Made by a program: the position numbers and the translations under genes. This document shows positions 1,067-19,097 of a stretch of 64,000 nucleotides of DNA, piece by piece. A model generated the notes under the pieces. It saw nothing but the letters and a program-made list of their open reading frames with translations. It had not been told where the DNA came from and ran no database searches. The stretch's first letter is position 1; each line of letters starts with the position of its first letter. Source of the DNA: Labilibaculum filiforme (lineage in GTDB: Bacteria; Bacteroidota; Bacteroidia; Bacteroidales; Marinifilaceae); assembly GCF_002843315.1 (NCBI RefSeq), contig NZ_MVDD01000007.1, forward strand, positions 186,001 through 250,000. The letters run 5' to 3'.

Positions 1067-1621
1067 TTAAACGAAATATAATATCGTAAATAAATTCTTT
1101 AAGTTCTCTTTTAAAAACTTGCCTGCTCTTTGCTTTTGTGTCTTAACTGTATTGATAGAGATATCTAAATCTTCGGCAATTTCGGCATTCTTCAGCCCCT
1201 TTAAACTTAATAAATAAATCAGTCTAGCTGATTCTGGTAATTTCTGAACCGTATCTTTAATCATTCGACTTACCTCTTCCTCTATCACATTATGAAGAAA
1301 ATAATCTTCGTCGCAAATAGTTTTATTGACTTGTCCTTCGTACGATTTACGAACTTTTTGATGTTCGATTTGATTCAAACAAGAATTGCGAACCGTTTTG
1401 TATAAAAATGCACGCAATGCTGCTTCATGATAAAAAGTAGCTCTCTTTTCCCAAACTTTAATAAAACTTTCCTGAATAATATCCTCAACAATATCTTGTC
1501 CCGAAATATATTTTTGGCCAAACAAAAACAACACATCAAAATACTTGTCGTACAAGTGTTTAAACGAGTCTTGATTACCATTTCTAAATAAATTTAGAAA
1601 AGTTTGATCAAAAGTTTTCAT
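1067..1621 (-). CDS. ECF sigma factor, FecI-like (RNA polymerase sigma-70 family)
   Basis: A 184-residue sigma factor with region 2 (YDKYFDVLFLFGQKYISG, then DIIQESFIKVWEKR) and a C-terminal region 4 helix-turn-helix (LKNAEIAEDLDISINTVKT). Length and layout match the Bacteroidota FecI-like ECF group that pairs with FecR anti-sigma proteins and drives one TonB receptor operon. It is immediately upstream of such a FecR on the same strand. The start ATG at 1621 fits the usual N-terminus. The regulated target is not in this window. Confidence 0.93.
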   Translation of the reverse strand: MKTFDQTFLNLFRNGNQDSFKHLYDKYFDVLFLFGQKYISGQDIVEDIIQESFIKVWEKRATFYHEAALRAFLYKTVRNSCLNQIEHQKVRKSYEGQVNKTICDEDYFLHNVIEEEVSRMIKDTVQKLPESARLIYLLSLKGLKNAEIAEDLDISINTVKTQKQRAGKFLKENLKNLFTILYFV

Positions 1622-14969: not shown

Positions 14970-16346
14970 ATGGCCATTAAAGCAAAAACAAAAAGCGCCT
15001 GGTTTTGTCAATCCTGCGGAGTAGAGTCTACAAAATGGGTAGGAAAATGTCCTTCGTGCGGAGAATGGAATTCGTTTGTTGAAGAAGTTGTTGTAAAATC
15101 AACTGCTACAACAATAGTAGGAACTAATGGTCAAGGAAAAAAAAATAAGCCACAAAAAATTTCCGAAATATCCTCCACCGAAGAATCTCGATTCGACACT
15201 AAAAATGAAGAACTAAATCGTGTGTTAGGAGGAGGTTTAGTTCCTGGATCACTAATACTAATAGGCGGTGAGCCAGGAATAGGAAAGTCGACTTTAGCCC
15301 TTCAAATTGCCTTAAATCTAAAGAATTACACTACTTTATATGTATCGGGCGAAGAAAGTGCTCAACAAATAAAGTTGCGCGGAAATCGTATTAATTCCGA
15401 TAACGAAAACTGCCTAATTGTAAGTGAAACATCCATGGAAAATATTTTTTCTCACGTAAAAAATACTTCTCCAAACATTATCGTTATCGATTCTATTCAA
15501 ACTCTTGCTACCGAAACGATAGAAGCTGGTCCTGGTAGCGTATCACAAATAAGAGAGTGCACATCTCAGCTACTGCGATTTGCGAAAGAATCCTCCACGC
15601 CAGTAATTTTAATTGGCCACATTACAAAAGATGGAAATTTAGCTGGTCCTAAAATTTTAGAACATATGGTTGACACCGTTCTTCAGTTCGAAGGAGATCA
15701 AAACCACATGTATCGAATATTACGATCTACGAAAAATCGTTTCGGCTCCACCTCCGAAATGGGCATTTATGAAATGCAGCACAATGGTCTCCGCGAAGTA
15801 TCTAACCCTTCAGAGTTGCTTCTTTCGCAGGAAGATGAAAACTTAAGCGGAGTAACTATTTCGGCTTCAATAGAAGGAATGAGGCCTTTCCTTATAGAAA
15901 TACAAGCTTTGGTCAGTTCCGCGGCTTACGGAACCCCGCAACGCTCCTCAACAGGTTTCGATCTTCGTCGATTAAATATGCTATTAGCTGTTTTAGAAAA
16001 AAGAGCTGGGTTCAAACTTTCTACCAAAGATGTATTTCTAAACATTGCTGGGGGAATTAAAGTAAACGATCCAGCTATCGATTTGGCTGTAATTCTCGCT
16101 GTTTTATCATCAAGCACAGACATCTCAATTCCTAAAGAAGTGTGTTTTTCAGGCGAAATTGGCTTGTCGGGAGAAATTAGACCAGTTAGCAGAATTGATC
16201 AACGCATTAGTGAAGCGGAAAAATTAGGATTCAAACAAATATTTATTCCAAAATACAACTCTAAAGGTTTAGATACCAATAAATTCAAAATAAAAATTCA
16301 TTTAGTTAGTAAAGTTGGAGAAGTCTTCCAAAAACTTTTTAGATAA
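14970..16346 (+). CDS. radA: DNA repair protein RadA
   Basis: RecA-like ATPase that drives branch migration in recombinational repair. In 458 residues it has an N-terminal zinc finger (Cys13, 16, 27, 30: CQSCG and CPSCGEW), Walker A GEPGIGKST at about 100-108, Walker B around IIVIDSIQTL, the RadA signature KNRFGSTSEMGIYEM near residue 254, and a C-terminal Lon-protease-like domain (DLAVILAVLSS) lacking proteolytic function in this family. It is probably co-transcribed with rfaE2. The hairpin after its stop lacks a T tract on this strand. Confidence 0.97.
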   Translation: MAIKAKTKSAWFCQSCGVESTKWVGKCPSCGEWNSFVEEVVVKSTATTIVGTNGQGKKNKPQKISEISSTEESRFDTKNEELNRVLGGGLVPGSLILIGGEPGIGKSTLALQIALNLKNYTTLYVSGEESAQQIKLRGNRINSDNENCLIVSETSMENIFSHVKNTSPNIIVIDSIQTLATETIEAGPGSVSQIRECTSQLLRFAKESSTPVILIGHITKDGNLAGPKILEHMVDTVLQFEGDQNHMYRILRSTKNRFGSTSEMGIYEMQHNGLREVSNPSELLLSQEDENLSGVTISASIEGMRPFLIEIQALVSSAAYGTPQRSSTGFDLRRLNMLLAVLEKRAGFKLSTKDVFLNIAGGIKVNDPAIDLAVILAVLSSSTDISIPKEVCFSGEIGLSGEIRPVSRIDQRISEAEKLGFKQIFIPKYNSKGLDTNKFKIKIHLVSKVGEVFQKLFR

Positions 16347-16351
16347 AAAAT

Positions 16352-16377
16352 AAGGCCGAAACTTACGTTTCGGCCTT
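16352..16377 (-). terminator. Terminator directed at the minus strand (end of the riboswitch RNA)
   Basis: AAGGCCGAAAC and GTTTCGGCCTT form a perfect 11-bp stem with a four-base loop. The T-rich tract (TTATTTTTTATC) is on the minus strand; the plus strand continues AAAACAG. The hairpin therefore suits a minus-strand transcript better than radA. Confidence 0.8.
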
Positions 16378-16494
16378 AAAACAGTTACTATGAATTTTTC
16401 TTGATTCGAGTATGGCATTTCGAATCGAATAGCGTCGGAATAAGAAAGAAATAAACTGAATCTTTCCGCTTTTTCCACCGAAAGCTAAATCCAT
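16363..16494 (-). CDS. Putative 43-residue ORF directly after the cobalamin riboswitch
   Basis: ATG at 16494 lies three bases after the closing P1 strand of the riboswitch, and the TAA falls in the loop of the terminator hairpin. The product would start MDLAFGGKSGKIQFISFLF and end NCFKAET. It has no recognised relatives, no signal peptide and only a weakly hydrophobic stretch. It could be a short regulatory peptide, a decayed start of a B12 transport gene, or simply untranslated RNA with a chance reading frame. Its position between riboswitch and terminator is the only support. Confidence 0.3.
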   Translation of the reverse strand: MDLAFGGKSGKIQFISFLFRRYSIRNAILESRKIHSNCFKAET

Positions 16495-16496
16495 GA

Positions 16497-16667
16497 TTTT
16501 AGGCAGGTCTTCTGGCTTATTCCATTTTAAACACCTTCCCATTCCATACAGAACAGTGGCTTACTTGTTTAAAATATTGATTCGAAAAACGAACCGGAAC
16601 TTACAGCTGCGGGGACAGCTCCTGCTTAAACAGGATTCCCTATTATTCCCTTTAGAGGAACCTAAAA
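16497..16667 (-). ncRNA. Cobalamin (B12) riboswitch
   Basis: Read on the minus strand it contains the class hallmarks in order: P1 TTTTAGG, GGTTCC, AATAGGGAATCC, GGAGCTGTCCCCGCAGCTGT, GCCACTGT, ATGGGAAGGTG, the B12 box AGCCAGAAGACCTGCC, and the closing P1 CCTAAAA, which pairs perfectly with the first strand. The fold is complete at about 171 nt. Such riboswitches normally control B12 uptake or B12-independent enzymes. Here the only thing downstream on the strand is a 43-codon ORF and a terminator, then the 3' end of radA in the opposite direction. Confidence 0.93.
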
Positions 16668-16674
16668 CTCCTTA

Positions 16675-16705
16675 CAATTTTAAAGAAAAAATATCGATCT
16701 TCCAA
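16675..16705 (-). promoter_or_regulatory. Candidate promoter of the riboswitch RNA
   Basis: On the minus strand TTG (16705-16703), 20 bases, then TAAAATTG (16682-16675), one change from TAnnTTTG. A start a few bases downstream would lie right at the riboswitch P1 stem. Confidence 0.5.
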
Positions 16706-16724
16706 CAATAATTTTGAATGGAAT

Positions 16725-19097
16725 CTAAAAGAAATCTTCATTCTCCGATTCAATCAATCCATTATTGTTAGATTCATCATCACAATCGAGATTTATACTT
16801 ACCCCTCTTGGTTTTTCGAAATCTCCTTGGCTAATATTCAAACTTTTATCCGCATAAACTTTTTGCATGTACAAGGCCCAAATTGGCAATGCCATATTTG
16901 CTCCCTGCCCTTGCCTAATCCCCTCAAAATGAACGGAACGATCTTCTGCGCCAACCCATACACCTGATACTAATTCGGGAGTTATTCCCATAAACCAACC
17001 ATCCGAATGATTCTGTGTTGTTCCCGTTTTTCCTCCAATCGGGTTATTCATTCCGTATTTAATTCTTAATCTTATCCCAGTACCTCTTTTAACCACACCT
17101 TCCAGTAAGTTCGTCATCAAATAAGCCGTTCTTTCGTCCATTACTTCCCGTTTTCTAGAAACCGAGCGAGCAATTAAATTTCCTTTATGATCTTCTATTT
17201 TAGTAACAAAGCTTGGTTTAATGTAAACTCCTTTATTTACAAATGTAGAATAAGCCCCAACCATTTCGTATACAGATATTTCCGAAGTACCTAAATAAAT
17301 AGATGGAACCGGATCGATATAACTAATCACACCCATTTTATGAGCCATATCGGCAACCGATTCAGGAGTAGTTTGTTTCAACACCCAACCCGAAATATTA
17401 TTCACCGAATTAGCCAATCCCCATTTTAAAGTCACCATCTCCCCTTCGTGCTTATCATCCGAATTTTTCGAAGCCCAAGGAGTTCCGTCTGGCAAAATAA
17501 ATGTTTGCGGAATATTTGGTACTTTATCGCAAGGCCCGAGCCCCTCTTGCATAGCGAGCGTGTACAAAAATGGTTTAATAGTAGAGCCAACCTGACGTTT
17601 TCCAACAGTAACCATATCGTACATGAAATTCTCATAGTTCGGTCCTCCAACGTAGGCACGCACCTCACCGGTTTGTGGTTCCATCGACATAAAACCAGCA
17701 CGCAAAAATCCTTTCATATATAGCATGGAATCATTAGGACTAAGAATCGTATCTCTTTCTCCTTTCCAAGTAAAGATTTTCATATTAGTAGGATTCTTAA
17801 ATACCAACCTTATCGAATCCATGCTCATGCCATTTTTCTTTAAAACACGATACCTTTCACTTCTTCGCATCGAAGTTTCAATATTATGCTCTACATCATC
17901 ATTGCTTAAATCATCCGAAAAAGGTGGATTTCTATGGTTCTCCTTTTCTCTATTAAAAGCCTTTTGCAAATCCAGTCCTAAATGTTCTACCACAGCTTCT
18001 TCGGCATACTTTTGCATTCTAGAATCAATAGTAGTATAAATTTTCAATCCATCCTTATATATATTGTATGGTGTTCCATCTGCTTTTACATTTTTATTAC
18101 ACCATCCATAAAAAGGATTGGTTTCCCATTCTATCGAATCCTTTACAAACTGCTGATGTGCATAAGATGGATACCTATCCTTAACCGGCTCATTTGCAGT
18201 TAACGACGTGCGCAAATACTCCCGAAAATAAGGAGCCATTCCTCTTTTATGATCTACTTTCTGAAAATCAATTCCCAACGGAAGGTTCTTAAGGGAATCA
18301 TATTGCGTTTCCGATAAGTAATCATACTTTACCATTTGCGATAAAACCACATTACGTCGGTTTAAAGTAAGTTCAGGGCGTCGTAGGGGATTAAAATACG
18401 ATGGGTTTTTAGCCATTCCCACCAACATAGCAGCCTGCTCAATATGAAGGGAGTCGGGTGTTGTGTTAAAGTATACATTTGCCGCCGATTTCACACCCAC
18501 AGCAAGGTTTAAGAAATCAAATTTATTAAAGTACATGGTCATGATCTCTTCCTTGGTGTAACTTCTCTCCAGTTTCACCGCAATTACCCACTCCCTAAAT
18601 TTTCTAAAAACAATCTCCATTTTTTTCTCGAAACTCTCCCGCGGGAACAACATTTTAGCCAACTGTTGCGAAATTGTACTACCTCCTCCAGCACTTTTGT
18701 CTCCTGTTACCAATCCTTTCGCAACACGTCCCAAACCTCTAACATCAATACCAGAATGATCATTAAACCTTACATCTTCAGTAGCAATTAATGCATCCAC
18801 CAAGAAAGGAGACAATTCAGGATACTCAACAAAAGATCTATTTTCAAAATAGAACTTCCCAATTAAACTGCCATCTACCGTATATACTTCCGTTGCTAAA
18901 CTGTTTTTAGGATTTTCCAATTCTTCAAACGAAGGCATGAAACCAAATGTACCATTTGAAACTCCAGCAAAAAACAGAACAGCACTTACTATTCCTATCG
19001 AAAAAACCAACCAAAAAATAATCAGTGGTTTTTTAAACATTTGTATTTTCGAAATTGATTCGTTATCCGAGTTAAACTCAGTGTTTCTTTCTGACAT
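16725..19097 (-). CDS. Penicillin-binding protein 1A (bifunctional transglycosylase/transpeptidase)
   Basis: Class A PBP that polymerises and crosslinks peptidoglycan at the inner membrane. The 790-residue protein has a short cytoplasmic tail and one membrane segment (about 25-45). The GT51 domain shows EDVRFNDHSGID near residue 106, GGGSTISQQLAKMLF, and KEEIMTMYFNKFDF. The transpeptidase has SxxK as STIK (about 502), SxN as SVNN and KTGT as GGKTGTTQNHSDGWFMG (about 690). Length and order match PBP1A/MrcA. The acidic C-terminal tail (DCDDESNNNGLIESENEDFF) is extra. No terminator separates its end from the riboswitch promoter. Confidence 0.95.
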   Translation of the reverse strand: MSERNTEFNSDNESISKIQMFKKPLIIFWLVFSIGIVSAVLFFAGVSNGTFGFMPSFEELENPKNSLATEVYTVDGSLIGKFYFENRSFVEYPELSPFLVDALIATEDVRFNDHSGIDVRGLGRVAKGLVTGDKSAGGGSTISQQLAKMLFPRESFEKKMEIVFRKFREWVIAVKLERSYTKEEIMTMYFNKFDFLNLAVGVKSAANVYFNTTPDSLHIEQAAMLVGMAKNPSYFNPLRRPELTLNRRNVVLSQMVKYDYLSETQYDSLKNLPLGIDFQKVDHKRGMAPYFREYLRTSLTANEPVKDRYPSYAHQQFVKDSIEWETNPFYGWCNKNVKADGTPYNIYKDGLKIYTTIDSRMQKYAEEAVVEHLGLDLQKAFNREKENHRNPPFSDDLSNDDVEHNIETSMRRSERYRVLKKNGMSMDSIRLVFKNPTNMKIFTWKGERDTILSPNDSMLYMKGFLRAGFMSMEPQTGEVRAYVGGPNYENFMYDMVTVGKRQVGSTIKPFLYTLAMQEGLGPCDKVPNIPQTFILPDGTPWASKNSDDKHEGEMVTLKWGLANSVNNISGWVLKQTTPESVADMAHKMGVISYIDPVPSIYLGTSEISVYEMVGAYSTFVNKGVYIKPSFVTKIEDHKGNLIARSVSRKREVMDERTAYLMTNLLEGVVKRGTGIRLRIKYGMNNPIGGKTGTTQNHSDGWFMGITPELVSGVWVGAEDRSVHFEGIRQGQGANMALPIWALYMQKVYADKSLNISQGDFEKPRGVSINLDCDDESNNNGLIESENEDFF

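Follow-up and report, generated by a model that had tools for sequence, protein, structure and literature searches.

An orphan cobalamin riboswitch of Labilibaculum filiforme, probably part of a free-standing RNA directed at the mutA start

Trans-acting RNAs under riboswitch control are few, and the B12 examples described in the sources cited here, EutX of Enterococcus faecalis with Rli55 of Listeria, and AspocR of Listeria, come from Gram-positive bacteria (PMC5821096, PMC8079631, PMC9943018). As far as these sources describe them, EutX/Rli55 are encoded beside the eut genes and bind the EutV protein (PMC5821096, PMC8079631), AspocR is transcribed across its target pocR (PMC8079631, PMC9943018), and these RNAs are full-length when B12 is absent (PMC5821096, PMC8079631). 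SreA of Listeria, according to the text cited, is a short product, bound to SAM, that comes from an ordinary leader (PMC8079631). A sequence-only reading of the locus studied here stated that no such RNA was known in Bacteroidota, and our search of the open-licence literature (mostly titles and the beginnings of abstracts) agrees; in the same material we found no cobalamin-switched sRNA against methylmalonyl-CoA mutase.

The window, i.e. the whole stretch of 64,000 nucleotides of Labilibaculum filiforme DNA that was analysed, indeed carries on its minus strand the complete B12 riboswitch that had been recognised by reading the letters. The element is a predicted cobalamin aptamer and an ordinary member of RF00174 (16485..16680, minus strand): the Rfam search of the window gave a match at 16680-16485 with 99.4 bits against a gathering threshold of 31.5 (E = 1.2e-23), covering model positions 1-189 in full, and no Rfam family other than RF00174 was found in the 64-kb window at gathering threshold. 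The promoter-like sequence TTG-N20-TAAAATTG is present as described and ends at 16675; it consists of an upstream element, TTGGA (16701..16705, minus strand), and of TAAAATTG near the predicted RNA start (16675..16682, minus strand), a box that we take to resemble the Bacteroidota-type promoter consensus. A scan of the region with a sigma-70-type consensus gave no excess of promoter-like sites (3 versus 5.2 expected from shuffles). The hairpin said to suit the minus strand alone is a predicted intrinsic terminator (16345..16378, minus strand), with 12 pairs and a 4-nt loop at 16378-16351 followed by TTTTTT, and it was reported for that strand alone.

Between these ends lies a predicted RNA of about 326 nt, in which the aptamer is followed by a structured body of about 125 nt and then by the terminator. 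In the consensus fold, all on the minus strand, a stem formed by AUGGAUUU (16487..16494, 100% of cells paired) and AAAUUCAU (16390..16397) closes around three hairpins: a P13-like hairpin GCUUU...AAAGC (16468..16485), invariant in 21 sequences; a purine/pyrimidine hairpin GGAAAGA...UUCC (16437..16467), the third of the set and a candidate expression platform; and a covarying hairpin GAUUCGA/UCGAAUC (16403..16426), with 5/7 pairs changed on both sides, which presents the loop sequence UGCCAUA (16417-16411). A tail, GUAACUGUUU (16379..16388, minus strand), stands between the closing stem and the terminator, and its AGUAACUGU is invariant in 21 sequences.

We then compared this switch with the others of the genome (5.2 Mb, 55 contigs), in which the RF00174 search found 10 cobalamin switches, including that of the window. 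Seven of the nine others open into same-strand frames of at least 395 codons starting within 330 nt; the eighth is followed, after about 450 nt, by a transporter-like frame of 551 codons, and the ninth, after about 530 nt, by frames that resemble cobalamin-synthesis genes, in both cases on the same strand and named by eye. Since all nine lead to same-strand genes, the window's switch is alone in the genome without one, and the claim of an orphan switch lacking a downstream transport or metabolic gene was borne out.

The element was found by DNA search in 15 other genomes among 59 (including this one); 13 of them keep the whole element, with 79-91% DNA identity over most of its length, and two (G024 and G034) match its first part only, at 78%. 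This conservation speaks against the proposal that it is the leftover of a lost uptake gene, and an uptake-like frame directly follows the element in none of 21 loci (by eye). The pattern scan of named genomes gave 16 matches, in Labilibaculum, Marinifilum, Ancylomarina, one unclassified Marinifilaceae MAG and one Sanguibacteroides; we rejected the last (L075), which looks like chance, since no aptamer-like sequence precedes it when the stretch is read by eye. A covariance model of the body gave strong matches (E ≤ 8.4e-15) in 22/56 family genomes, a count that leaves out matches with E ≥ 0.07 and in which many of the 22 are sequences used to build the model. Carriers are all genomes of the genera g5, g7, g9, g10 and g17, and 8/9 of g1, the sole g1 genome without a match being 63% complete. 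In the PBP1A neighbourhoods of 15 family genomes without a model match GTAACTGT was not found, and phage records gave no match.

Six GTDB genera share the promoter boxes, the aptamer, the structure of the body and the function of the terminator. The boxes TTG and TAAA(A/C)TTG show no change among the orthologues aligned (16/16), and TTTAGCTTTCGG, AAAAGC and AGTAACTGT are invariant in 21 aligned sequences. The consensus structure has 98.1% of cells paired (20 distinct rows), changes on both sides in 6/24 pairs (reached by 7/500 shuffles) and a covariation score of 0.210 (reached by 0/500 shuffles), figures that lean towards structure because the structure was derived from the same alignment; the closing stem has one-sided changes only. 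Three unrelated hairpins take the place of the terminator, a GGCCGAAAC-like one in 10 of the 21, GAGGATGTC in 6 and AAGGATTGTAA in 5, the window's type being replaced by the two others in other genera, and a T-rich stretch follows each type. Therefore, of the readings first offered for the locus, that of a B12-controlled small RNA is supported: there is no downstream gene, and terminator and promoter are conserved, the promoter by consensus.

The other readings on offer, an RNA antisense to radA, a regulated peptide or a remnant of a btuB-type leader, start from the orphan position beside radA and from a 43-codon ORF, and we give them next to no credence. The ORF is present in this genome as described but is not conserved in relatives: read from the conserved ATG (GTG in L021 and L022) it stops after 6-7 codons in 12/21 sequences, and in the remaining 9/21 it has 23-53 codons in differing frames, which argues against a peptide. 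Convergent radA (14970..16346, plus strand; TIGR00416, 599 bits) faces the element directly in 12/21 loci; three Marinifilum loci have about 1 kb between the element and the end of radA, and in five Ancylomarina loci the next gene is another one, a same-strand response-regulator-like gene that starts about 40-85 nt past the terminator, depending on the start codon (locus L071 ends too early to place radA). The predicted 3' end of the RNA falls close to the radA stop codon (16346), and a useful overlap with radA is therefore not expected. No downstream gene is constant over the 21 loci, the neighbour varies between genera, and the RNA does not run antisense into a target gene as AspocR does, which is the defining feature of an antisense-acting riboswitch (PMC9943018). 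Preservation over six genera with a constrained structure also argues against a remnant.

On the other side, a cell-wall gene of the PBP1A family (16725..19097, minus strand; TIGR02074, 461.5 bits, below the cut-off of 508.75) ends 29-229 nt upstream of the element in 21/21 loci. This constancy would fit an element that is part of the 3' UTR of the PBP1A message and gives B12-responsive control of its end or stability. We hold this to be quite unlikely: invariant promoter boxes stand between gene and element, the orphan switches of three gut relatives (G010, G013 and G018, see below) sit elsewhere, facing a NadD-like frame rather than PBP1A (by eye), and we know of no link between a PBP and B12. 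Neither PBP1A nor radA is thought to be part of the mechanism. In G028, the PBP1A gene (L023 / G028:C3:86061-88446) comes as two matches, each containing an in-frame stop, possibly a frameshift or an assembly error.

The sequence-only reading had given no target, and the evidence presented below points to mutA, which encodes the small subunit of methylmalonyl-CoA mutase (TIGR00642 is the best match, 599.7 bits, slightly below the cut-off of 617.25). While checking the B12-related genes of the genome, we observed the antisense of the RNA tail just before the mutA start codon, in a region that reads AACAGTTACagtTATGGCAG. The RNA has two seeds predicted to be single-stranded, the loop UGCCAUA and the tail GUAACUGUU, with mean unpaired probabilities in the 326-nt RNA of 0.97 and 0.88, respectively. 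The tail is complementary to AACAGUUAC and the loop to UAUGGCA over the mutA start codon, in a consistently antiparallel order. The two-site target, AACAGUUAC-agu-UAUGGCAG, is identical in 14/14 clade genomes (the 12 of the first comparison plus G024 and G034; G001 gave no MutA, and G026 and G028 were outside the sample), and complementarity of the tail to a distant mRNA start is thus conserved in 14/14 mutA leaders. In G005 the mutA site is identical though the RNA was not found there. In Marinifilum the loop reads CGCCAAA, which leaves a match to mutA of no more than 4 nt. Before mutA in G016, G024 and G034 (leaders L114, L195 and L202), a AACAGTTACA unit occurs twice in tandem.

Among 516 gene starts (781 kb of this genome), a convenience sample that includes chosen candidates such as MetH, mutA has the best duplex energy and shares first place for the tail match (10 nt); no other start combines a tail match of at least 8 nt with a loop match of at least 6 nt. 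MetH is confirmed in this genome, and its start does not reach this combination. MetE was ruled out as a target, being absent from this genome. From these data we propose that the element is a free-standing, B12-controlled and trans-acting sRNA against the mutA start with a B12-sparing role, a reading to which we assign a probability of about two in three. Its parts and how far they are conserved, the structure as predicted, and both complementarities with their recurrence are read directly from the genomes.

Recurrence was observed in gut relatives. An RF00174 search of ten family genomes without a strong body-model match gave 49 matches, and in six of the genomes (G010, G013, G018, G019, G020 and G021) AACAGTTAC precedes mutA. 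By our own call, one switch is an orphan in each of G010, G013, G018, G020 and G021; in G020 and G021 frames of 112 and 159 codons, respectively, start after the terminator and were judged spurious. In four gut relatives these orphan RNAs under a B12 switch, which the body model does not detect, have matches to the mutA start of the same genome: G020 with AACTGTAACTGTT (13 nt) and CTGCCAT; G021, which was examined after the idea arose, with ACGTAACTGTTT (12 nt) and TCTCTGCC; G018 with GTAACTGTTT and TCTCTGCCA; and G013 with TTCTCTGCCA only. The G010 orphan has neither seed and shows a 10-nt AT-rich match instead, so that G010 and G013 are both without the tail seed. The start-codon seeds of G018, G013, G021 and G020 are predicted to be unpaired in hairpin loops.

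A start-codon match of at least 7 nt together with a leader-motif match of at least 7 nt was found in 4/9 orphan-type versus 0/45 gene-linked switches, with classes assigned by us, thresholds set after the data were seen, and 3 of the 9 orphan-type switches (L178, L257 and L258) possibly serving genes farther away. This comparison covers 54 switches, including 8 of the 10 of this genome; 3 more were dropped for lack of a recognised box. In G019 the mutA motif is present and a matching orphan switch was not found; its switches reach at most 8 nt, in a length comparison from which four G019 switches were dropped, these scoring 0-5 at the start codon. In G009, AACAGTTAG is present and an orphan switch was not found, and G011, G015 and G022 gave neither the mutA motif nor an orphan switch. 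Three of the switches deserve mention for themselves. L257 and L258, in G019, are cobalamin switches after which no frame of at least 60 codons begins for some 450 and 650 nt, respectively; they have no mutA match and may be orphan RNAs of another kind. L178, in G013, is a cobalamin switch whose leader of more than 350 nt precedes a 4-hydroxybutyryl-CoA dehydratase-like frame (by eye).

To see how specific the target site is, we searched six genomes for AACAGTTACN{0,6}ATG and found 46 places, compared with 21 for the reversed pattern. Six of the 46 are the RNA gene, six are mutA, and among the 34 others 30 lie inside frames of at least 100 codons, 2 open frames of at most 4 codons and 2 are gene starts. 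The first gene start is that of a reductive dehalogenase in G014 (gene L218 70-1503, minus strand; TIGR02486, 246 bits versus a cut-off of 160), whose leader AACAGTTACaaTATGGCA copies both mutA sites. The second is that of an MmdA-like gene in G003 (TIGR01117, 774.7 bits, below the cut-off of 998.8), which has the tail site only, as AACAGTTAC just before the gene (L210 ~1500-1517, plus strand). Reductive dehalogenases are corrinoid-using enzymes, and MmdA has its place on the propionate route to which methylmalonyl-CoA mutase also belongs. About one chance gene start is expected in the six genomes from base composition, so either single match could be due to chance; what stands out is that both are in B12-linked metabolism. 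MmdA was rejected as a conserved target, the site of G003 being absent from nine other clade leaders. With the 16-nt tail antisense (AACAGTTACTN{0,2}TGAAT), a single match outside the element was found in 31 genomes, in G044. A further AACAGTTACTATAACAG copy lies outside the element at 975-991 of the window (plus strand), probably by chance.

Several results weigh against mutA as the target. When duplex energy was compared with shuffles, using stretches that run past the likely ends of both RNAs, p was ≤ 0.01 in 11/17 genomes and higher in G017 (0.023), G020 (0.043), G012 (0.06), G013 (0.24), G018 (0.49) and G010 (0.59). In G000 and G017 the longest match differs from the tail seed, and several single-genome p values based on length are 0.05-0.10. 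Chance matches of 10 nt against mutA occur in four gene-linked switches, and a match of that length is therefore weak evidence by itself. Moreover, in this genome the gene-linked leader of a TonB-receptor-like frame (L002 1770-1783, switch G000:C11:19584) contains ATCTGCCATAACTG, which is antisense to the mutA start over 14 nt without a mismatch, and the control class of gene-linked switches is therefore not clean. In Labilibaculum the ATCTGCCATAACTG match is only partly conserved; across the related switches it has 14 nt in G000 and G001, 12 in G002, G006 and G008, 11 in G016, 9 in G003 and G004 and 7-8 in G005, G007, G017 and G028, and it is unrecognisable in G034; it either indicates the extent of chance or would be a second source of seed in an ordinary leader.

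It might thus be that the B12-controlled non-coding RNA is real and that mutA is not its main target, the RNA acting on other messages or sequestering a protein as EutX does, with the mutA match partly a coincidence. This we consider unlikely, while giving it real weight: the seeds are short, the ranking covered 516 gene starts only, the match in L002 is chance-like and the Marinifilum loop is mismatched, but two correctly ordered seeds fall on the start codon of a B12 enzyme, gut relatives show the same link and a second corrinoid enzyme carries both sites. Since relatives that lack a body-model match have the mutA motif too, the conservation of the motif is not due to this RNA alone. Along with the proposed action on mutA, we tentatively put forward, at somewhat less than even odds, a B12-sparing regulon of Marinifilaceae (in the GTDB sense), in which each lineage would have its own stand-alone sRNA with a cobalamin riboswitch, its body and its place in the genome would have turned over beyond recognition, the loop-displayed mutA seeds would persist and further corrinoid enzymes, e.g. 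the reductive dehalogenase, would have been recruited through copies of the two-site target.

How could such a free-standing RNA spare B12? Here we infer that the RNA is transcribed, in which direction B12 acts on it, that it pairs with its target in the cell and that it represses it. The RNA would start at its own promoter just 5' of the aptamer and end at its own terminator. By analogy with the known B12-switched RNAs, EutX/Rli55 and AspocR, it should be complete or active at low B12, when both seeds would be presented and would cover the mutA leader and start codon; synthesis of the mutase would then stop, and B12 would be left for the methionine synthase MetH. At high B12 the RNA would be incomplete or its seeds masked, and mutA would be translated. 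The RNA might instead be made at all B12 levels, with the aptamer controlling exposure of the seeds, or a short, B12-rich form might be the active one, as in the polarity of SreA. No clear terminator is evident between aptamer and body, and a seed directly follows P1 in G018 and G021, which would suit either version; cofactor logic, and the known B12-switched RNAs that are full-length without B12 as far as described (PMC5821096, PMC8079631), make both very unlikely. As regards physiology, in the portion of a study on which we draw, genes of propionate fermentation are strongly expressed in situ in Marinifilaceae and several subgroups are marked in a table as incomplete for cobalamin synthesis (PMC9765461), which makes a B12-sparing response by the proposed RNA plausible.

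If the proposal is true, a single RNA of these sediment bacteria would hold a whole cofactor-sparing circuit, its B12 sensor acting directly through an sRNA that silences enzymes dependent on B12. Methylmalonyl-CoA mutase is on the route to propionate, a main product of many Bacteroidota, and propionate output would in this way be tied to the supply of B12. With its two short sites the target allows sharp mutational predictions, and the orphan switches of gut relatives widen the test.

The logic proposed here is that of the iron-sparing sRNAs of the RyhB type, which shut off the making of cofactor-dependent proteins under cofactor shortage; RyhB is under the control of the Fur protein, whereas the present RNA would be controlled by a riboswitch in the same molecule. 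With EutX/Rli55, in so far as the sources describe them, the RNA shares a cobalamin aptamer in a free-standing non-coding RNA and, in our proposal, a B12-dependent pathway that is kept off without B12 (PMC5821096, PMC8079631). Unlike those protein-binding RNAs, it is proposed to base-pair with an mRNA, lies far from its target and belongs to Bacteroidota. In AspocR, as outlined in the texts cited, a B12 switch likewise controls an RNA that holds B12-dependent metabolism off, but the RNA described here has no overlap with its proposed target (PMC8079631, PMC9943018). In the account available, the riboswitch RNA SreA pairs in trans with the leader of the prfA mRNA and blocks translation, as proposed for mutA, whereas we deal here with a stand-alone gene carrying a B12 aptamer (PMC8079631). 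By analogy, the device would thus work like EutX in its form, like AspocR in its logic and like SreA in its pairing.
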